This document shows, piece after piece, positions 31,947-50,496 of a stretch of 64,000 bases of DNA (position 1 is its first letter; the number at the start of each line of letters is the position of its first letter). Source of the DNA: Halalkalicoccus sp. CG83. Lineage in GTDB: Archaea; Halobacteriota; Halobacteria; Halobacteriales; Halalkalicoccaceae. A program made the position numbers and the translations under genes. The stretch spans positions 1,364,001 to 1,428,000 of the forward strand of contig NZ_JAZDDH010000001.1 of the NCBI RefSeq assembly GCF_037081715.1, written 5' to 3'. Below the pieces are notes generated by a model, which was not told the DNA's origin, did no database searches, and saw only the letters and a program-made list of their open reading frames with translations.

Positions 31947-32753
31947 CTATCGGTTCGCTTCGAACCACTCGGTCGCGAAGTCAACCAGTTCACGCTGATC
32001 GATCAGCTTCGCCGTCGCCGCACCGACTCGTCCCTCGACGACGCCGACCTGCTCCTCGAAGGCCGTCCCGATCTTAGGGAAGTCCTCCGTGCTCGTCTCG
32101 ATGTCCTCGTATTCGAGGCGGACACGCTCGCCGCTCCGGACCACTGGAGCGCTGCTCGTGACCGTCTCTTTCGGTATCTCCGCCCGGTGTTCGGCCAGGT
32201 GAAGCGACGTGTTGGCGTCGTGGCCGACGCCCAGTAAGAGGATCTCTCCACCCCGCTCGTAGATCCGGGCGAGCGGCGATCCCTCGCCGAGCCCGTAGTC
32301 GAAGTCGTGATCGGCCACGATCGCCTCGGCCTCACTACCCCACGCCGCAAAGGAGACCTCGGGGTGGCGGCTCCGAATCACGTCGGGATAGTTTCGGAAA
32401 CACTCCGGGACTGCTCCTACGCCCCGCGTCGGCGTGACCGCGGGCCAGTAGACTGGCATCCCTTCCCGTATCGTCCCGATCCACTCGTCGGGAACCGGCG
32501 GGTCGGACCAGCTCGATGGCTCCGTGTACTGACCGGTATGGGTCGGCATCACCAGCGTCCCCGAGTCGGTTACGACCTCACGGAGCGCGTCACAGACCGC
32601 CTGCGGGCCGCCACAGGTCCATCCCAGCGCGTTTAGCGACGCGTGAACGAGCACCATCTCGCCGTCCTTGATACCGAGGTCCCGGAGATCATCGACAAGC
32701 GATGGTACCGTGTTCGGTTCGTTGATCCGCTCGATAGCCCGTTCCTCGCTCAT
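31947..32753 (-). CDS. Aminoglycoside N(3)-acetyltransferase-like protein (AAC(3)/YokD family)
   Basis: A 268-residue acetyl-CoA-dependent transferase of the AAC(3) fold. MVLVHASLNALGWTCGGPQ near residue 33, GTLVMPTHTGQYT, and RHPEVSFAAWG with its catalytic His, then LLLGVGHDANTSLHLAEH, are the family motifs. In bacteria members acetylate aminoglycosides; in archaea the native substrate is unknown and resistance should not be assumed. The start at ATG 32753 trims eight residues from the longest frame. Confidence 0.85.
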   Translation of the reverse strand: MSEERAIERINEPNTVPSLVDDLRDLGIKDGEMVLVHASLNALGWTCGGPQAVCDALREVVTDSGTLVMPTHTGQYTEPSSWSDPPVPDEWIGTIREGMPVYWPAVTPTRGVGAVPECFRNYPDVIRSRHPEVSFAAWGSEAEAIVADHDFDYGLGEGSPLARIYERGGEILLLGVGHDANTSLHLAEHRAEIPKETVTSSAPVVRSGERVRLEYEDIETSTEDFPKIGTAFEEQVGVVEGRVGAATAKLIDQRELVDFATEWFEANR

Positions 32754-32824
32754 GGCCGCGGCTCGTGGGGTCAACACTTCAACCTACTCCGAAACGCAGA
32801 ACGGACCGCCACCCGAGTTCGCTC

Positions 32825-33904: not shown

Positions 33905-34762
33905 TCACCGATCCTCACGGGAGCGTCCGAAGCGGTGGCGGAGCCTGCCGTTCAGCCGCGGCGCCGTGACGAGTTCGCGCCAGCGGTCGGCAGTGCGGAT
34001 CCCGATCAGGTAGCTGACGGTTCCGAGCACCGTCCCCGCGACGACGTCGGTCGCCCAGTGGATGCCGAGGTACATCGTTGCCGTCACGACGCTGACGCCG
34101 AGGACGCTCGCCATGACGAGCCATCGAGGATAGGCTTCGCGGGTGTGCCACGCGAACAGCATCGCGGTCACCGAGAGCGAGGTGTGGAGCGACGGGAAGA
34201 CGTTCGTGTTCGTGTTGACCGCGCTGGTGAGCAGCCGGGACTGGGGGTAGACGTTGTACATCAGCTGTTCGGCGACGTCGAGGTTACGCGGACCGTAGGC
34301 GATGAAGAGCAGGTAACAGACCAGCCCGAGCCCGTAGTTCGCTGCGTAGGCGATCGCGAGCTCGTGGAGCCGACGCTGATCGCTGAGCGCGAGATACGCG
34401 AGCAGCGGGAAGACCAGCAGGAAGACGTAGCCGTAGACGTAGATGGACGAGAAATACAGCGTTAGTGCGGGGGTCTCGAACGCCTGGAAGGTGGCGACGA
34501 AGTCGCCCTCGATGCGGTAGATGGCGGCCGTTATCTCGAAACCGATGAGCCACGAGAGCTGCTGGGCCGCCCGGCGGGTGAGGCTGTTGAGCACGAGGAC
34601 CGCGGCGAGCAGCGCGAGCGCCGGGGCGGCGAGGCGCAACCGGGGACGGAGCTCGTTTCTGAGTTCGCGCAGCGCCCGGCGGTCGAGACAGACGACCGAA
34701 CCGGCGACGAGCAGGACGCTCACGACCACGATCACCGTCGCGAGTACGAGGAGGAGACTCAT
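33905..34762 (-). CDS. PAP2-family membrane phosphatase/phosphotransferase
   Basis: A 285-residue membrane enzyme with about six helices. Two of the phosphatidic-acid-phosphatase motifs are visible: FPSLHTS (near residue 188, catalytic His) and YLGIHWATDVVAG (near 229). The arrangement is that of the PAP2_3 group related to inositol-phosphorylceramide synthase. It probably acts on a lipid phosphate at the membrane surface. It starts 9 nt after the stop of the binding-protein gene on the same strand, so the two may be co-transcribed. Confidence 0.82.
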   Translation of the reverse strand: MSLLLVLATVIVVVSVLLVAGSVVCLDRRALRELRNELRPRLRLAAPALALLAAVLVLNSLTRRAAQQLSWLIGFEITAAIYRIEGDFVATFQAFETPALTLYFSSIYVYGYVFLLVFPLLAYLALSDQRRLHELAIAYAANYGLGLVCYLLFIAYGPRNLDVAEQLMYNVYPQSRLLTSAVNTNTNVFPSLHTSLSVTAMLFAWHTREAYPRWLVMASVLGVSVVTATMYLGIHWATDVVAGTVLGTVSYLIGIRTADRWRELVTAPRLNGRLRHRFGRSREDR

Positions 34763-34771
34763 GTCATGCTC

Positions 34772-36553
34772 TCACTGCTGTGCTACGAGCTCGTTCTCCT
34801 CGTTGTACGTGTAGCCCGCCTCGCGAAACAGCTCGTAGGCGGTCTCCTCGTCGATCGTGGCGGTGCCGCTCTGACCGGCGAACCCCTGTTCGCTGCTGGG
34901 TCGCCAGCCGTTCTCTACCGCTGAGCGCGGACCCAGCGGGGAGAGCGCCGGGGTCGCGAAACCGTCGAAGACCTCCGTGCGGAGGTACTCTCGATCGATG
35001 AGGCGTCCGACCGCCAGTCGGAACCGGGGGTTGCTGAGCGGCGCGTTCCGGGCGTTGAACCCGACGTGGTAGTGCGCGCTCGTGCTCTCGACCCGCAGCG
35101 AGACGTTCGACGCCTGGTCGGCCCGCGGGATCTCGGTCGCCGTCAGGCCGGCGGTGGTCGCGTCGAGGTTGCCGGTCTGCACCAGTTCGATCAGGTTCGC
35201 CTGCGAGGGCGAGTAGAGGAACAGGATCCGTTCGTAGGACGGGCCGCCGGCGAACGGCGACAGCACGTCGGCGACCTCCTCGCGCATCAGGAAGTGGTCG
35301 TCGAACCGTTCGAGTTCGAGGCGCTCGTCGACGACGGCGTCGGCGTACCGGAGCGCTCCGGAGCCGACCGGCTCGGGGTTGTCCCAGATCAGCGCCTCGG
35401 TCACGTTGTTCCGGTCGACGCCGGTGATCGAGGTGAGCTCCGTCTGCTGCTCCCAGACGTGCATGGGGACGATCGGGACGGTCAGCGCCCGTAGGCCGAC
35501 CTCCTCCCGGGAGGCGACGAGGCTGATCTCGACCTCGCGATTGCCGGTGACCTCGACGCTCTCTACGAGCGAACTCCGACTTCGGAACCGAGGGGCCGGG
35601 ATGACCGGATCGTCGTCGGTCATCGTCGTGTCCGCGAGGAAGCGATAGGTGAACGCGACGTCCGCCGCGGTGAGCGCCTCGCCGTCGTGCCACGTCAGGC
35701 CGTCCCGGAGGTGCAGCCTGATCGTCGGTCCCGAGTCGTCCCACTGCCAGTCCCGGGCCAACCACGGCTCGATCGAACCCTCGATCGGCTGTCCGAGCGG
35801 ATCGTACAGCAGACCGGTGATGATGCCGCGGTGGCGAAACTCGACTGCGAAGGGGTTCCGGTTCCGGGTGACTCGGCGGTCGGTGATACCCATGTACAGC
35901 GTATTGGCCTCGCGAACTCCGTCGCGGCTCGCCTCCTCGTGGGCCTCTAGCGAGAGGTAGCCGAGCGGTCGTTCGAGCGATCGGTATGCCCACCCCGAGT
36001 AGCGATCCTCGCGGATCGCCCGGGGCTCGTCGGGGTAGGCGACGACCGAGAGCGGAAGCTCCTCGAGCAACACCCGGCGGAGCTCCTCGAGAAGCGCGAT
36101 ACGGTCGCTCGCGTAACGCTGTTCGGTGAGCAGTTCGTCGACCTCCGAGACGTTCGCGTAGCCGAACGGGTTCTGCCAGCCCTCCTCCTCGATGAACCGC
36201 GAGTGGAGGAAGCCGTAGAGGTAGTCGGGATCGAAGAAGCCAGGGTGTTGACCGACGTACAGATCGAAGTCGTGGTTGATCAGGACGTCCCTGAGAAGCT
36301 GTTCGGTCGTCACCGGCTGAACGCTGGCGTCGATCCCCGCCCGCTCCAGGTTCTCCGAGAGATGTCGGGCGATCCGGACGGGGATGCCGTCCTCGTCGGT
36401 GGGGACCGTCTTCAACGCCAGCGACACCTGTTCGGGGGTATCGCGGTCGACTGACGCCTGGAACTGACCGAGACAGCCGGCATTGCCGGCGGCTACTCCG
36501 GCGGCACCGGCGATAAACGTCCGGCGGTCGATCGGTCCCCCTACTGCCGTCAC
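34772..36553 (-). CDS. ABC-transporter substrate-binding protein (peptide/nickel type), apparently circularly permuted
   Basis: A 593-residue Tat lipoprotein: DRRTFIAG (Arg10-Arg11) and lipobox GNAGC (Cys27); GTG start with a GTTGATA box A about 30 nt upstream. The parts of the SBP_bac_5 fold come in reversed order. Residues about 41-190 match what is normally the C-terminal part (ENLERAGIDASVQPVTTEQL, HDFDLYVGQHPGFFDPDYLY, LLEELPLSVVAYPDE). Residues about 215-593 match the normal N-terminal part (GLLYDPL, ARDWQWDDSGPTIRLHLRDG, WHDGEALTAADVAFTY) and end at the hinge AYELFREAGYTY. No permease or ATPase is adjacent; a PAP2 gene follows. Confidence 0.8.
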   Translation of the reverse strand: MTAVGGPIDRRTFIAGAAGVAAGNAGCLGQFQASVDRDTPEQVSLALKTVPTDEDGIPVRIARHLSENLERAGIDASVQPVTTEQLLRDVLINHDFDLYVGQHPGFFDPDYLYGFLHSRFIEEEGWQNPFGYANVSEVDELLTEQRYASDRIALLEELRRVLLEELPLSVVAYPDEPRAIREDRYSGWAYRSLERPLGYLSLEAHEEASRDGVREANTLYMGITDRRVTRNRNPFAVEFRHRGIITGLLYDPLGQPIEGSIEPWLARDWQWDDSGPTIRLHLRDGLTWHDGEALTAADVAFTYRFLADTTMTDDDPVIPAPRFRSRSSLVESVEVTGNREVEISLVASREEVGLRALTVPIVPMHVWEQQTELTSITGVDRNNVTEALIWDNPEPVGSGALRYADAVVDERLELERFDDHFLMREEVADVLSPFAGGPSYERILFLYSPSQANLIELVQTGNLDATTAGLTATEIPRADQASNVSLRVESTSAHYHVGFNARNAPLSNPRFRLAVGRLIDREYLRTEVFDGFATPALSPLGPRSAVENGWRPSSEQGFAGQSGTATIDEETAYELFREAGYTYNEENELVAQQ

Positions 36554-37302: not shown

Positions 37303-38391
37303 ATGAAACGAGAGGAGCGGTCGAGACGGGCCGTACTCGGGATTGGCGCCGCGGCGCTCGCGGGTCTCGCCGGCTGTACCGCCGGGAACAGTGCCGAGGA
37401 GACGCTCGGCGACCGGGAGAAGAACGAGCCCGAAGACGCGACGGCGGACGGCGAAACGACCGATGACGGGACGACGGAGGACGACGAGGACGAGGTCGTC
37501 GAGCCGCCGGAGGGCGGTGCCGTCGTCTTCGTCTACGACGACGGGCCGCTGGAGGACTACACGCAGGCGTTTCCCGTCCACCAGGAGTTCGACGCGCCCG
37601 CGACGACGGGCATCGTCTCCGAGTGGATCGGCCGCGAGGACTACATGGACGCCGGCTGCATGGACGTCGAACATCTAGAAGCGCTGGTCGACGCCGGCTG
37701 GGAGATCGCCTCTCACACGGTCGAACACACCGCGGTGGGCAGTTTCGAGCTCGTCGAGAGCGCCGCCCCGGAGGACGGCTCCGTCTACCCGGAGGAGATC
37801 CGCCACGGCTACCACCGGGGGAAGGAACTCGAGATCACCGACGACGATCGAACGGTCCGCCGAACCGTCGTCGACTACGGAAGCGACGGCGTCGGCCGGT
37901 ACATCGAGTTGGACGAGCCGCTCGGCGAGTCGTTCGCCGCGGGCGAGACCGTCGTTCGGTACCCCGCAGACCAGATGCACGCGTCGCTGGGAGAGTCGAA
38001 ACGCGAACTCGAGCGACTGGGTTTCGAGGTCGATACGCTACTCGCCCCCTACGACAACTTCGACGAGTACTCGATGGAGTTCGTCGGAGAGTACTACGAC
38101 GGCGTCGCGAACGCGAAACACGGATCGCGGATCAACGACCGGGGGGAGTTCGACCCCTACCGCACCTGTCGGGACTACTTCATCGAGTTCACCAGTCGCG
38201 AGTCGGTACGACGGGACCTCGACGAGATCGCCGAGCGCGGCGCGCTGGGCGTCTTCGGCGCACACGCGTTCAAAGAGGAGGTCTCGAGGGAACGCATCCG
38301 GGAGACGCTCGAGTGGATCGACGAGCGGGACATCGAGGTGATGACGCTTCGCGAGGCGATCGCGCGCTTCGGCGACCGGCATCGGTCGTGA
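37303..38391 (+). CDS. Polysaccharide deacetylase-like lipoprotein (NodB homology)
   Basis: A 362-residue exported protein: SRRAVLGIG twin-arginine motif (Arg8-Arg9) and lipobox GLAGC (Cys25), then an acidic linker (30-70). The deacetylase core has VFVYDDGPLEDY (Asp79, Asp80) and the metal motif SHTVEH (137-142); the last part contains TLLAPYDNFDEYS and FGAHAFKEE. An extra module of about 75 residues (about 155-230) with a beta-rich look (ITDDDRTVRRTVVDYGSDG) is inserted after the SHxxxH motif. It probably removes N-acetyl or similar groups from surface glycans. The TATA region carries an inverted repeat. Confidence 0.78.
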   Translation: MKREERSRRAVLGIGAAALAGLAGCTAGNSAEETLGDREKNEPEDATADGETTDDGTTEDDEDEVVEPPEGGAVVFVYDDGPLEDYTQAFPVHQEFDAPATTGIVSEWIGREDYMDAGCMDVEHLEALVDAGWEIASHTVEHTAVGSFELVESAAPEDGSVYPEEIRHGYHRGKELEITDDDRTVRRTVVDYGSDGVGRYIELDEPLGESFAAGETVVRYPADQMHASLGESKRELERLGFEVDTLLAPYDNFDEYSMEFVGEYYDGVANAKHGSRINDRGEFDPYRTCRDYFIEFTSRESVRRDLDEIAERGALGVFGAHAFKEEVSRERIRETLEWIDERDIEVMTLREAIARFGDRHRS

Positions 38392-40760: not shown

Positions 40761-41813
40761 ATGGTCGACGACGATCTGCGGTCGACGCTCGAGCGCGTCG
40801 GCGAGCAGTTCAACCTCGGAGAGTACGAGATCGACGCCTACCTCACGGTGCTTGAACACGGCCAGCTCACCGCGAGCGAGATCGCCGATCGTACCGACAT
40901 CCCTCAGCCGCGGGTCTACGACACGGTGCGCAGCCTCTCGGATCGTGGGCTGGTCGAGCTCCGCGAGACCCGTCCGATGCGGATCATCGCGGTCGACCCC
41001 GACGAGGCGTTCTCGATGGTCCGGAGCTCGCTCACGGAGATGGTCGACGAGCTCGAGGCGCGCTACACCGCTCCGGCCCGGGACACGGAGGCCGTCTCGC
41101 TCGTGAAGTCGCGCTCGACGATCCTGCGTCACCTCTCGGACGTGATCGAGGCCGCCGAGTACGAGCTCATCCTCTCGCTCACCCCCGAACTGCTCAAGCG
41201 TTTCGACGAGGAGCTCCGCGGGGCGATCGACCGCGGGATCAGCATCGAGCTGCTGGTCACGCCAGCCGCCGAGGCCCCCTCGCCCGAGACGTTCGACTAC
41301 GGCGCGGTCTCGACGGTCGCGAAGGCCCGCCGCGGGATCACGACGCCGATCGTCGCCGTCGGCGACGGCGAGTACTCGGTCTACGCTACCCAGGACGCCA
41401 TCCGGGACGACCGGGATCGCTACGGCGTGATCTTCCATCGCTCGGCGCTCGGCTTCCTGGTGTCGGGGTTCTTCGGTACCGTGCTCTGGACGACCGCCGA
41501 ACCCCTGGCGGCGAACGGCGAGGGACGGCCCTTCCCTCGACGGTACGCCTCGATCCGCCGGTGTGTAAAGGACGTCTACGAGCTCGGCGGCGAGTTCTTC
41601 GCCACCGTCGAGGGTCGGGACGTCGAGACCGGCGAGGCACTCGTCCTCAGCGGGCGGGTCGCGACCGTGGAGCTCGAGGATACCGAGGAGGTCGCCGCGA
41701 TGGTTCTCGACACTGGCGAGGGCGAGGTGACCGTTGGCGGACGGGTGGCGGCCCTCGAGCAGATCGAGGCCCACGAGATCCAAATCGACCGCGACGAACC
41801 GCCCGCTCGCTGA
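40761..41813 (+). CDS. TrmB-family transcriptional regulator
   Basis: A 350-residue regulator: N-terminal winged helix ([20 protein letters not shown], then [13 protein letters not shown]), a coiled linker and a C-terminal phospholipase-D-like sugar-sensing domain. TrmB proteins repress or activate sugar uptake and glycolytic/gluconeogenic genes. Nearby candidates for control are the sugar ABC operon at 45.8 kb and the aldo/keto reductase. A box A (ATAACTAATT) about 28 nt upstream supports the start. I did not find its binding motif with confidence. Confidence 0.9.
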
Positions 41814-45855: not shown

Positions 45856-47307
45856 ATGACCAATGATGGCAGGGAGGGTGGGATCTCCCGGCGAACGTTC
45901 GTAAAGGCGGCCGGGGCCGGCGGGGTCACGGCCGGGGCGGTCGGGCTCGCCGGGTGTCTGGGAAGCGCTGATCAAGACAGCGTCATCATACACGCCGACG
46001 CGGAGTTCCAGGACTTCAAAGATCAGTTCTTGGAAGCGCTCTACGAGGCCGGCCTCGACGAGAGCATCTCGTACGAGGTCCGTCCGGCTCCCAACAACAC
46101 CGAACAACGCCGACAGGAGATCCAGTCGGCGCTCGAGGCCGAGCGGGCGCCGCCGGACATCTTCATGATGGACTCGGGGTGGACGATCCCGTTCATCCTG
46201 CGAGAACAGACGGTGAACCTGCAGGAGCACCTCTCGAACGACGTGCTCGACCGCATCCAGAACACCTACCTGCAGATGTCGGTCGAGACCGCGAGTCACC
46301 CCGATACCGGGAACCTGAATGCCCTGCCGCTGTTTCCCGACTTCCCGGTGATGCTCTACCGGAAGGACCTCGTCGAGGAGGCGGGCTACGACACCAGCGG
46401 CTGGGCGACCGAACCGATGACGTGGGAGCAGTTCTCCCAGGTCGTCGCGGACGCCCAGGAGCAGGCCGGCCTCGAGTACGGCTTCACGACGCAGGCTGCG
46501 TCCTACGAGGGGCTCTCGTGTTGTACGTTCAACGAGACGATGTCCGGCTGGGGCGGCGCGTACTTCAACGGCCTCGACAACCTCTTCGACGCCGGCGGTC
46601 GCGAGGTCACCGTCGAGGGAGAGCACGTGTTAGACGCGATCCGGATGATGCGAGCGTTCATGTACGGTGAGGAGGACGAACACGCCCTCGAGGGCTACGA
46701 GCAGATCGCGCCGACCACGATCGTCCAGTGGGTCGAGGACACCTCTCTCGGTCCGTTTCAGAACGGTAACGCCGTCGCCCACCGCAACTGGCCGTTCGCC
46801 ATCGCCGCGACCGCCACCGAAGAAGCCTTCGGCGAGGCCATCGGCACCATGCCGATGCCGTACGGCGTCCCCCCGGAGGAGTCCGAGTACGAGGGGCTCG
46901 GCGGATCGAAGCATGCCCTCGGGGGGTGGCATTTCGCGATCAACCCGGGCACCAATCGGCTCGATGAGTGCGTCCAGCTCCTCGAGGCGTTCTCCGCGGA
47001 GAACGTCCAGCTCACCCTGTTCGATGTGGGATCGTGGTTCCCGATGAACCTCGACCTCCTCGATTCCGACGTGGTCCAGGAGACCGAGCCGCTAGGCCGG
47101 TACACAGACACGCTCAAGTTCGTCGGGAGTCGTGCGGTACCGCGGCCGGTGAGCGACGTCTGGACCGAGCAGTCGGCCCACATCTACATCGAGGTGCACA
47201 ACGCCTACACCCAGTCGAAATCGCCGGAGCAGGCGATGGCGGATCTACACGAACGGCTGAGAGACAGCGAACAGGCCGTAGAGGAACAGGAGAACAATGT
47301 CAACTGA
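45856..47307 (+). CDS. Sugar ABC transporter substrate-binding lipoprotein
   Basis: A 483-residue family-1 solute-binding protein (MalE/ThuE type). A twin-arginine SRRTFVKAAG (Arg12-Arg13) and lipobox GLAGC (Cys34) predict Tat export and lipid anchoring. The mature part begins SVIIHADAEFQDFKDQF; PPDIFMMDSGWTIPF and LNALPLFPDFPVMLYRKDL are typical of the trehalose/maltose binders. Its end overlaps the first permease gene by 11 nt. The sugar is unknown. A ribosome site precedes the ATG. Confidence 0.88.
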   Translation: MTNDGREGGISRRTFVKAAGAGGVTAGAVGLAGCLGSADQDSVIIHADAEFQDFKDQFLEALYEAGLDESISYEVRPAPNNTEQRRQEIQSALEAERAPPDIFMMDSGWTIPFILREQTVNLQEHLSNDVLDRIQNTYLQMSVETASHPDTGNLNALPLFPDFPVMLYRKDLVEEAGYDTSGWATEPMTWEQFSQVVADAQEQAGLEYGFTTQAASYEGLSCCTFNETMSGWGGAYFNGLDNLFDAGGREVTVEGEHVLDAIRMMRAFMYGEEDEHALEGYEQIAPTTIVQWVEDTSLGPFQNGNAVAHRNWPFAIAATATEEAFGEAIGTMPMPYGVPPEESEYEGLGGSKHALGGWHFAINPGTNRLDECVQLLEAFSAENVQLTLFDVGSWFPMNLDLLDSDVVQETEPLGRYTDTLKFVGSRAVPRPVSDVWTEQSAHIYIEVHNAYTQSKSPEQAMADLHERLRDSEQAVEEQENNVN

Positions 47308-48325
47308 CACCGGAACACAGACGGACTCGGGAGCCGGGAGACAGCGTAGCATCCTCACACCCGCGACCAACTGGATCGAGAACCTGAGCGAGTCGGCCTA
47401 CGCCTACCTGCTGTTGACGCCGGCTTTCGCGCTGCTCACGCTCGTGGCGTTCTGGCCGCTGGTCGCGACGTTCCGACTGTCGTTGCTCGCGGACCAGACG
47501 AAAGGGGCGGCCGCGCTTGGCGGCTTCGTCGGCCTCGAGAACTACCTCAACGTCCTCACGGGCGACATCAGGCTGGCACGACAGTTCTTCGACATGGAAC
47601 TCGTCGGCGGGTTCCCGTTCATCCAACTCGGGACGCCGTTCTTCCAGCAGGCGCTGTTCGTGACGCTCGCGTTCGCCCTGCTCAACGTGCTCTTTACGAC
47701 GTTGATCGGGTTCGGACAGGCGCTGATCCTCGATCAGGACTTCCGCGGCCGACGCTGGGTCCGGGTCGCGATCATCATCCCGTGGGCGGTGCCGATCGTC
47801 ATCCAGGGGATGATCTTCTTCCTGTTCTTCCAGCCGACCGTCGGGTTCGGCAGCGGCGTGATGCAGTCGCTCGGCCTGTTCAGCGCCAACCCGCTCGCGA
47901 GCAGCCAGGACTCGTTCTTCATCGTCCTGATCGCCGACATCTGGAAGACGTCGGCGTTCATGGCGCTGCTCATCCTCGCGGGACTCCAGAGCGTCGATCG
48001 CAGCCTCTACGACGTCGCGAGGGTGTCGGGAGCGTCGCCCTGGCAGCGCTTCAAGATGATCACGTTACCGCTGGTGTTGCCCGCGCTGTTGGTCGCGATG
48101 CTGTTCCGGACGATGGAGGCGATGCGCATCTACGGACTGATCGAATCGACCGCGGGCTGTACGACCGTCCCCTCGATGACCTGTCTGGTGATCGAGGGAC
48201 TGTTCGGCGGAACGCGGATCTACGGAACGGCCGCGGCCGTCGCGTTCATCACGGCGGCGATCATCGGGTTGTTGATCTCGGTGTACATCGTCAAGTTCCG
48301 CGACAACGAAGGAGGGCTCTACTGA
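47297..48325 (+). CDS. Sugar ABC transporter permease (MalF type)
   Basis: A 342-residue binding-protein-dependent permease with an Asp/Ser/Thr-rich N-terminus then about six helices. The EAA loop contacting the ATPase is visible late in the protein: SLYDVARVSGASPWQRFKMITLP. It overlaps the binding-protein stop by 11 nt and its TGA overlaps the next permease start (TGATG). It forms a heterodimer with the MalG-type permease. Confidence 0.92.
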   Translation: MSTDTGTQTDSGAGRQRSILTPATNWIENLSESAYAYLLLTPAFALLTLVAFWPLVATFRLSLLADQTKGAAALGGFVGLENYLNVLTGDIRLARQFFDMELVGGFPFIQLGTPFFQQALFVTLAFALLNVLFTTLIGFGQALILDQDFRGRRWVRVAIIIPWAVPIVIQGMIFFLFFQPTVGFGSGVMQSLGLFSANPLASSQDSFFIVLIADIWKTSAFMALLILAGLQSVDRSLYDVARVSGASPWQRFKMITLPLVLPALLVAMLFRTMEAMRIYGLIESTAGCTTVPSMTCLVIEGLFGGTRIYGTAAAVAFITAAIIGLLISVYIVKFRDNEGGLY

Positions 48326-49290
48326 TGGCAGCAGAAACCGAAACTCAAACCCAGACCACGGAGACACGGCAGGAGGAACCGGAGCTGGACCGCGGCCCGC
48401 TCGAGCGGTGGGTTTCGGACTCGATCGACAACCCCGAACGCACCTATCGGGCGCTGTTCTACACCGCCATGATCGTCATGCTCGTTACGACGCTGTTCCC
48501 GTTCTACTGGCTGTTGATGGTCGCGCTCACGCCCGAAGGCCAGATCCAGGACATCATTCTCACGCCGAACGGCTTCAACCCCGGCGCGTTCATCGAGGTG
48601 TTCCAGGTGCTGCCGTTCCACCGCTTCATGTTCAACAGCTTCGTGATCGCGACGGTCGCGACGGTCTTCGTGCTGGTCATCGCGAGCCTGGCGGGCTACG
48701 TCTTCGGTCGCCTGCAGTTCCCCGGGAAGGCCCCGCTCATGCTGCTGGTGTTGATCGTCTCGTTCTTCCCACCGGCGGCCTTCTTCATCCCGCTCAACGA
48801 CCTGTTCAACAGCAGGATTCCGATCATCGCACCGCTCCTGAGCAACGGAACCCTCTACAACACGCCGCCAGCGCTGATCATTCCGCTGAGTGCGTTGTTC
48901 ATGCCGCTCGCGATATTCATCCTCACCACGTTCTACTCGCAGATCCCCGACGGGCTCGAGGACGCCGCCCGGGTCGAGGGGACCACCCGTCTCGGCGCGC
49001 TGTTCCGGGTGATCATCCCGCTGTCGGCGCCGGGCGTCGCGACCGCGGGCGTCCTCACGTTCATCGGCGTCTACAACGAGTTCTTCTTCTCGTTTCTGAT
49101 GACCGACGGCCAGCCCCAGAACTGGGCGCCGATCCTCGAGGGGCTTCTCGGCTACCAGACGCAGTACCAGACGATGTACAACCTGATGGCCGCCGCCTCG
49201 ATCCTCGGGGTGTTGCCGGTCGCGATTCTGGTCGTCATCGCACAGGAGAAGATCGTCAGCGGGCTCACCGCGGGAGCACTCAAGGAGTAA
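48325..49290 (+). CDS. Sugar ABC transporter permease (MalG type)
   Basis: A 321-residue permease starting at ATG 48325 (coupled, TGATG), despite a longer open frame from 47782 inside the other permease. After a Gln/Thr-rich N-terminus it has six helices; the EAA loop reads GLEDAARVEGTTRLGALFRV followed by IPLSAPG. With the preceding gene it makes the translocation channel. Confidence 0.92.
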   Translation: MAAETETQTQTTETRQEEPELDRGPLERWVSDSIDNPERTYRALFYTAMIVMLVTTLFPFYWLLMVALTPEGQIQDIILTPNGFNPGAFIEVFQVLPFHRFMFNSFVIATVATVFVLVIASLAGYVFGRLQFPGKAPLMLLVLIVSFFPPAAFFIPLNDLFNSRIPIIAPLLSNGTLYNTPPALIIPLSALFMPLAIFILTTFYSQIPDGLEDAARVEGTTRLGALFRVIIPLSAPGVATAGVLTFIGVYNEFFFSFLMTDGQPQNWAPILEGLLGYQTQYQTMYNLMAAASILGVLPVAILVVIAQEKIVSGLTAGALKE

Positions 49291-49296
49291 CCTACA

Positions 49297-50496
49297 ATGG
49301 CACGAGTAACACTCGAACACGTAACGAAACGGTACGAGGACGTAACGGCAGTCGACGACATGAACATGGAGATCGAGGACGGCGAGTTCGTCACCTTCGT
49401 CGGTCCCTCCGGCTGCGGGAAGTCGACCACGATGGAGACCATCGCCGGGCTGACCAAGCCCACCGAGGGTCAGATCTACATCGGCGAGCGAGAGGTGACG
49501 AACCTCCCGCCCAAAGACAGGGGGATCGCGATGGTCTTCCAGAACATCGCGCTGTTCCCCCACATGGACGTCTACGAGAACATCAGCTTCGGCCTCCGGC
49601 TCCGGAAGTACGACCAGGAGGAGATCGACCGGCGGGTCGAGGAGGCTTCGGATATCGTCCAGCTCGAAGGGATGTTGAACCGGATGCCCGACGAGATGTC
49701 GGGCGGCCAGCGCCAGCGCGTCGCGATCGCCCGCGCGCTCGTTCGGGAGCCTGAGGTGTTCCTGATGGACGAGCCGCTCGCGAACCTCGACGCGAAGCTC
49801 CGGGTGCACATGCGCACCGAGCTCCAACGGCTGCATCGCCGCCTCGACACCACGATCATCTACGTCACCCACGACCAGGCCGAGGCGATGACGATGTCCA
49901 CGCGGATCGCGGTGATCAACGCGGGCCGGCTCCAGCAGATCGCTCCGCCGCTCGAGTGTTACAACGAGCCCGCGAACCTCTTCGTCGCGGGGTTCATCGG
50001 CTCGCCGGGGATGAACTTCGTCGAGGCAACCGTCTCCGACGACAGTCTCGAGACGGAGAACTTCTCGATCGAGTTCGATCCCGCGGGAAGCGGACTCTCG
50101 TCCGGGGATACCGTCATCGTCGGAGTCCGCCCGGAGGACGTCTACCTCGAACGGACAGCCGGTAGCGTCAGCCACCAGAGCGACCCGATCGACGCCAGGA
50201 CGGACGTGCTCGAGCCGATGGGCAACGAGATCTTCGTCTATCTCGTCACCGGCGACGAAGCCGAGACCGATACCCAACTAGACGTCGAGGGGGAGGTCAC
50301 CACGGACGATCAGTTGTTGATGAGCGTCGACCCCGACACCGATATCGGCCCCGACGAGGACGTTCAGGTAATCCTCGACCGTTCAAGTATTCATCTGTTC
50401 GATCCCGATACCGACGAGGCACTGCGCCACGGGATCGTCGAACCCGCGGCTGCCGACTCAGGAGCCGCCGAACGCGGCGTGGGCGACACCGACTGA
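49297..50496 (+). CDS. Sugar ABC transporter ATPase (MsmX/MalK/UgpC type)
   Basis: A 399-residue ATPase. Walker A GPSGCGKST (36-44), signature SGGQRQR (135-141), Walker B FLMDEPLANLDAK (155-167) and H-loop YVTHDQAEAM. A C-terminal OB-fold (TOBE-like) domain (about 240-370) is typical of MalK-type ATPases, which have regulatory roles. A hairpin terminator follows the stop, so the operon probably ends here. Confidence 0.93.
   Translation: MARVTLEHVTKRYEDVTAVDDMNMEIEDGEFVTFVGPSGCGKSTTMETIAGLTKPTEGQIYIGEREVTNLPPKDRGIAMVFQNIALFPHMDVYENISFGLRLRKYDQEEIDRRVEEASDIVQLEGMLNRMPDEMSGGQRQRVAIARALVREPEVFLMDEPLANLDAKLRVHMRTELQRLHRRLDTTIIYVTHDQAEAMTMSTRIAVINAGRLQQIAPPLECYNEPANLFVAGFIGSPGMNFVEATVSDDSLETENFSIEFDPAGSGLSSGDTVIVGVRPEDVYLERTAGSVSHQSDPIDARTDVLEPMGNEIFVYLVTGDEAETDTQLDVEGEVTTDDQLLMSVDPDTDIGPDEDVQVILDRSSIHLFDPDTDEALRHGIVEPAAADSGAAERGVGDTD

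Follow-up and report, generated by a model that had tools for sequence, protein, structure and literature searches.

A circularly permuted SBP_bac_5-type Tat lipoprotein encoded with a PAP2-family membrane enzyme in haloarchaea

The substrate-binding proteins (SBPs) AppA (1xoc), DppA, and OppA are members of a family of exported receptors described by the Pfam profile SBP_bac_5 (PF00496), in which the canonical order is N-terminal lobe, hinge, and C-terminal lobe. Proteins with SBP-like folds have also been described as partners of membrane enzymes in mycobacteria. LpqW (Rv1166; 2grv) is an SBP-fold lipoprotein with a role in membrane glycolipid synthesis, where it channels PIM4 to lipomannan/LAM (PMC3229680). 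The orphan SBP-like lipoproteins LpqZ and FecB interact with AftA and AftB, respectively, and are likewise receptors repurposed to serve membrane enzymes that build the envelope (PMC12802301). Both circular permutation and orphan SBPs are events of kinds already known.

Here we describe a gene in which these two kinds of event meet. It lies in a 64-kb stretch of DNA from Halalkalicoccus sp. CG83, referred to as the window, and profile comparisons identify its 593-residue product as a circularly permuted member of the SBP_bac_5 (DppA/OppA) family. The features of the locus, with coordinates in the window, are as follows.

34772 to 36553, minus strand (36553→34772): permuted SBP_bac_5-type Tat lipoprotein gene, 593 aa, GTG start
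36473 to 36553, minus strand: Tat signal peptide and lipobox, residues 1-27, RR at 10-11, Cys27
35939 to 36430, minus strand: segment of the C-terminal lobe in its new position (residues 42-205), on canonical columns 332-480
35906 to 35938, minus strand: poorly conserved linker between the former C-terminus and the former N-terminus, residues 206-216
34790 to 35905, minus strand: N-terminal part of canonical SBPs (residues 217-588), on canonical columns 8-329, containing the WHDGE motif
34805 to 34840, minus strand: hinge motif AYELFREAGYTY, residues 572-583, located from the sequence and the family alignment
33905 to 34762, minus strand (34762→33905): PAP2_3-family membrane phosphatase/phosphotransferase gene, 285 aa, PF14378 E 4.7e-15

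Compared with AppA, DppA, and OppA, the protein belongs to the same sequence family and matches both parts of the profile, as members of SBP_bac_5 (cluster C) do, but the parts are swapped, with the cut directly behind the hinge EAGY, so that the hinge motif ends the protein here and sits in the middle of canonical SBPs. It also differs in that its lipid anchor stands ahead of the former C-terminal part and in that no ABC genes lie alongside. The best stretch of the Pfam match (E 3.9e-49) pairs residues 261-587 with profile positions 2-284 of 368, and the protein's own N-terminal segment corresponds to positions 298-361, which is the remaining end of the profile. When aligned with canonical SBPs by hhalign, residues 217-588 fall on columns 8-329 (E 3.9e-57) and residues 42-205 on columns 332-480 (99.1% probability, E 1.4e-18), whereas 20 column-shuffled controls gave probabilities of at most 1.4%. 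The two aligned pieces abut on the canonical columns (329/332) and almost no column is lost. The linker region (residues 205-216) has a mean conservation of 0.16 in the family alignment, while family motifs such as WHDG are retained.

A search with the N-terminal part alone as a single sequence gave no significant SBP match, the best SBP being LpqW with an E of 1, and proof of the permutation therefore needs profiles. A profile of this segment from 19 sequences, compared with all solved structures, had AppA 1xoc residues 361-497 as its top match (E 5.6e-7), and nearly all remaining matches at E <= 10 were SBP_5 proteins at the same C-terminal place. LpqW was among the top structures (E 2.4e-5) and was matched at its own residues 407-482, late in the chain, which is the canonical order and unlike that of the permuted SBP. 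All 19 of the family's N-terminal segments match Pfam SBP_bac_5. An AlphaFold2 model built from two sequences only (the permuted SBP and the relative L055) had a pLDDT of 35.

The signal peptide combines a twin arginine with a hydrophobic stretch and the cysteine of a lipobox, the feature set of haloarchaeal Tat lipoproteins. The Pfam TAT_signal match is weak; R10R11 and G26C27 are conserved in 100% of 62 non-redundant members of the family. An earlier note on this DNA, made from the sequence alone, had described a natural circular permutation in a Tat lipoprotein with no ABC partner genes nearby. The permutation was confirmed by the Pfam profile positions, the structure-profile matches, and the hhalign comparison with its shuffled controls, the lipoprotein assignment was borne out by the conserved signal residues, and no Opp/Dpp-type permease or other Opp/Dpp-type ABC gene was found beside the gene at this locus. 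The same note had proposed a search for homologues of the same order, and these were found in abundance. Full-length homologues in swapped order (E <= 1e-60) are encoded in 170 of 293 Halobacteriales genomes, representing 60 of 87 genera, and every match in the phylum-wide sample has the same swapped order. The permutation is thus not unique to Halalkalicoccus sp. CG83 and is no local oddity, the permuted family being old and widespread in haloarchaea. Scans of viral contigs for relatives returned one single 31-residue match, which was not used, and otherwise none. In G280 (C1:179948-181839, minus strand) the permuted SBP appears to be in pieces across reading frames, and a PAP2 match remains in that genome.

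The gene directly downstream encodes a PAP2_3-family (PF14378) membrane protein, and its start lies 9 bp past the SBP stop codon. This pairing is conserved. The PAP2 gene lies directly downstream on the same strand in 75 of 79 fetched SBP copies, some of which were fetched twice, or in 46 of the 49 distinct copies; the distance from SBP stop to PAP2 start ranges from -4 to 131 bp and overlaps are frequent. The 171 genomes (of 293) in which the PAP2 gene was detected represent 60 of 87 genera, and the SBP and PAP2 genome lists differ only in three genomes: G020, which has the SBP without PAP2 and is 76% complete, and G016 and G280, where PAP2 is present and the SBP is weaker or frame-broken. 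The SBP copies without an adjoining PAP2 gene are L068, L070/L037, and L103. In six genomes with two copies, an SBP or PAP2 protein and its closest relative in the respective tree are mainly of the same cassette type, and the pairwise distances of the two proteins over all pairs correlate with r 0.83, a value to which shared species history contributes. Tandem or duplicated cassettes therefore largely keep their own SBP-PAP2 pairing. No constant neighbor gene other than PAP2 was found among the loci compared.

The partner protein has all of the PAP2 superfamily motifs (catalytic Arg, Ser-x-His, and His-x3-Asp), and the residues R159, S191, H193, H235, and D239 are kept in 47-48 of 48 copies. 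It shares the GPR, PSLH, and HxxxD motifs with PAP2_3 proteins, PgpB, undecaprenyl-diphosphate phosphatase, and AUR1, but is only weakly similar to characterized members: PgpB and undecaprenyl-PP phosphatase models score it far below their cut-offs, and its matches in the PDB have E values of 0.13-0.5. The distribution of hydropathy and charge, if a seventh helix is taken to begin at the PSLH motif, places all three motifs on the outer face, and from this we infer that the catalytic site is outside the cell membrane. Lipids are the normal substrates of PAP2 enzymes.

Permuted SBPs are not restricted to this cassette. A second and more distant set with the same order and cut occurs in haloarchaea and Alphaproteobacteria (such as Nitratireductor, Ketogulonicigenium, Roseomonas, and Maritalea). 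Those encoded in ABC operons are about 23-27% identical to the 593-residue protein. Examples include proteins from Halalkalicoccus (L061), Halomarina (L062), Natrinema (L063), Nitratireductor (L059/L120), Ketogulonicigenium (L060), and Roseomonas (L121), among others. They differ from the PAP2-linked protein in being encoded with permeases and ATPase(s), often near peptidases or hydantoinases, and Opp-type permeases and ATPases were present at 12 of 12 loci examined. In contrast, none of 44 loci of the PAP2-linked family examined lies in an Opp/ABC operon; an ABC gene occurs somewhere in the flank at seven of the 44 and adjoins the cassette at none. Since same-cut permuted SBPs sit in ordinary Opp-type operons, permutation alone does not end the association with transport, and it was rejected as a sufficient explanation for the loss of transport. 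In view of the same 12 loci, the suggestion in the earlier note that the permuted order could change how a ligand enters or could signify sensing is not supported. For the PAP2-linked family, a loss of the transport role is probable.

A tree of rotated sequences neither rejects (AU p = 0.41) nor proves that the permuted proteins all go back to one event. In the best tree two canonical haloarchaeal SBPs stand beside the PAP2-linked family with weak support (58.6/77), which would fit a separate permutation giving rise to that family, but one origin is not rejected. Canonical-order haloarchaeal SBPs include L016, L019, and L002, the last from the same genome as the permuted SBP. In L016 and L019 the two parts are separated by ~120 additional residues; these two proteins, which cluster weakly with the PAP2-linked family in the tree, are possible unpermuted sisters of it. 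The permuted SBPs L059, L060, L120, and L121 are located on plasmids of Alphaproteobacteria inside Opp-type ABC operons. L060, L120, and L121 look like a conserved bacterial clade because they share ~55% identity and adjoin peptidase or hydantoinase genes.

Our preferred reading of these comparisons, to which we give about even chances, is that the orphan permuted SBP has left ABC transport and been repurposed as the outside partner of a PAP2 lipid-(pyro)phosphate phosphatase or phosphotransferase. The lipoprotein would be anchored on the outer face of the membrane, the same side as the predicted PAP2 catalytic motifs. Its presumed two-lobed SBP fold could bind a head group, a glycan, or the PAP2 enzyme itself, and the SBP might then present substrate to PAP2 or gate it. 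Such a module may serve to process lipid-linked sugars or the head groups of phospholipids. In canonical SBPs the lipid anchor usually precedes the first lobe, whereas the permutation places it ahead of the C-terminal-lobe segment, and the protein could thereby face the membrane the other way up. This shift probably preceded the change of partner because the ABC-linked permuted relatives share it. Three features expected of an orphan partner are present: the gene is outside any ABC operon, the product is a lipoprotein, and the link to a membrane enzyme is constant. The mycobacterial proteins are analogous, with differences. The associated enzyme of LpqW is PimE, a mannosyltransferase, as opposed to PAP2, and LpqZ and FecB are ProX-like and FecB-like SBPs rather than SBP_bac_5 proteins, with arabinosyltransferases as partners. 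Several findings count against the model of an enzyme partner. The three SBP copies without an adjoining PAP2 gene indicate that the SBP can exist without PAP2 in cis, the likeness of the PAP2 protein to characterized lipid phosphatases is weak, and linkage to a glycosyltransferase, described below, is found at a minority of loci and is absent from the window.

The shared operons and joint duplication would also fit a scavenging pair, in which PAP2 dephosphorylates an outside solute or lipid head group and the SBP carries the product to an ABC permease encoded at a distance. The fold family consists of solute receptors, motifs such as WHDG are kept, the permuted relatives serve ABC transporters, and Opp-type permeases are encoded elsewhere in the genome. 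However, the three strongest permease pairs in that genome each adjoin their own canonical SBP, at none of the 44 loci is the gene part of an ABC operon, and PAP2 enzymes usually act on lipids. We regard the scavenging pair as unlikely, although it is the best of the alternatives.

A ligand sensor, as the earlier note had suggested, would bind an outside ligand and regulate PAP2 or another membrane protein. Orphan SBPs are capable of sensing and a tight link to one membrane enzyme suits regulation, but that constant partner is an enzyme and nothing else accompanies the gene constantly at the loci compared. The constant PAP2 partner, which the earlier note had missed, suggests a part in the chemistry of lipids or the envelope and not in sensing, and a sensor role is considerably less probable than scavenging. 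That the N-terminal segment is an unrelated domain attached to an SBP truncated at its C-terminus would agree with the single-sequence search, but is already contradicted at the level of sequence by the E values of 5.6e-7 against solved structures and 1.4e-18 against canonical SBPs, near-zero shuffled controls, two exactly complementary alignments, and the 19/19 Pfam matches, and it is hardly credible.

The partnership of the permuted SBP with PAP2, if correct, would be a case independent of the mycobacteria in which receptors have been turned into enzyme partners. If the chemistry of the module concerns lipid-linked sugars or head groups, the module becomes a candidate for those steps of archaeal envelope synthesis that take place outside and about which little is known. 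Annotation as 'ABC transporter substrate-binding protein' masks both the rearrangement and the probable loss of the transport role in the PAP2-linked family. Permuted and canonical SBPs together also form a natural experiment on the position of the lipid anchor needed for ABC docking. No description of permuted or circularly permuted SBP_bac_5 proteins was found in the open-access literature searched, the coverage of which is incomplete, and nothing relevant came up there on the permuted-SBP/PAP2 cassette or on PAP2 or orphan SBPs in haloarchaea. Circular permutation within the DppA/OppA family is common and yet seems to have gone undescribed in the open literature that was searched. More tentatively, and with somewhat less confidence than the partner role itself, we suggest that a permutation that occurred once and spread through haloarchaea and Alphaproteobacteria gave rise in haloarchaea to an undescribed SBP-PAP2 envelope module, possibly for lipid-carried sugars.

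Neighboring genes at loci of the PAP2-linked family give a hint of chemistry on lipid-carried sugars or the envelope. Within ~5 kb, 10 of 44 loci, the window not among them, encode an orthologous PMT_2-type membrane glycosyltransferase, and an arylsulfotransferase is encoded in the neighborhood of eight of the 44. The glycosyltransferase is present in 1-2 copies per genome checked, most of these genomes having been picked because of the linkage. In eight genomes checked, which were chosen for the linkage, it is the best copy that lies close to the permuted SBP. Among the three SBP copies without PAP2, L068 and L070 adjoin genes for a PMT_2 glycosyltransferase and an arylsulfotransferase, together with a YdjM-family membrane protein.

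Several other genes were observed in the window. A divergent polysaccharide deacetylase gene (37303-38391, plus strand) with its own lipobox-like start is located close upstream of the permuted SBP gene. An aminoglycoside 3-N-acetyltransferase family protein (PF02522, E 1.6e-91) is encoded at 31947-32777 on the minus strand, in this case in a haloarchaeon. Rfam and tRNA scans of the 64-kb window were empty. A sugar-type ABC system comprising SBP_bac_8, permeases, and a MalK-like ATPase occupies 45856-50496 on the plus strand and is followed by a Gfo/Idh/MocA oxidoreductase and a xylose-isomerase-like TIM barrel protein; a TrmB regulator gene is nearby (40761-41813, plus strand). These ABC genes (45.8-50.5 kb) were rejected as partners of the permuted SBP because they make up a sugar system of the MalK type that has an SBP_bac_8 of its own, and together with TrmB they are an ordinary cluster for sugar uptake and breakdown.
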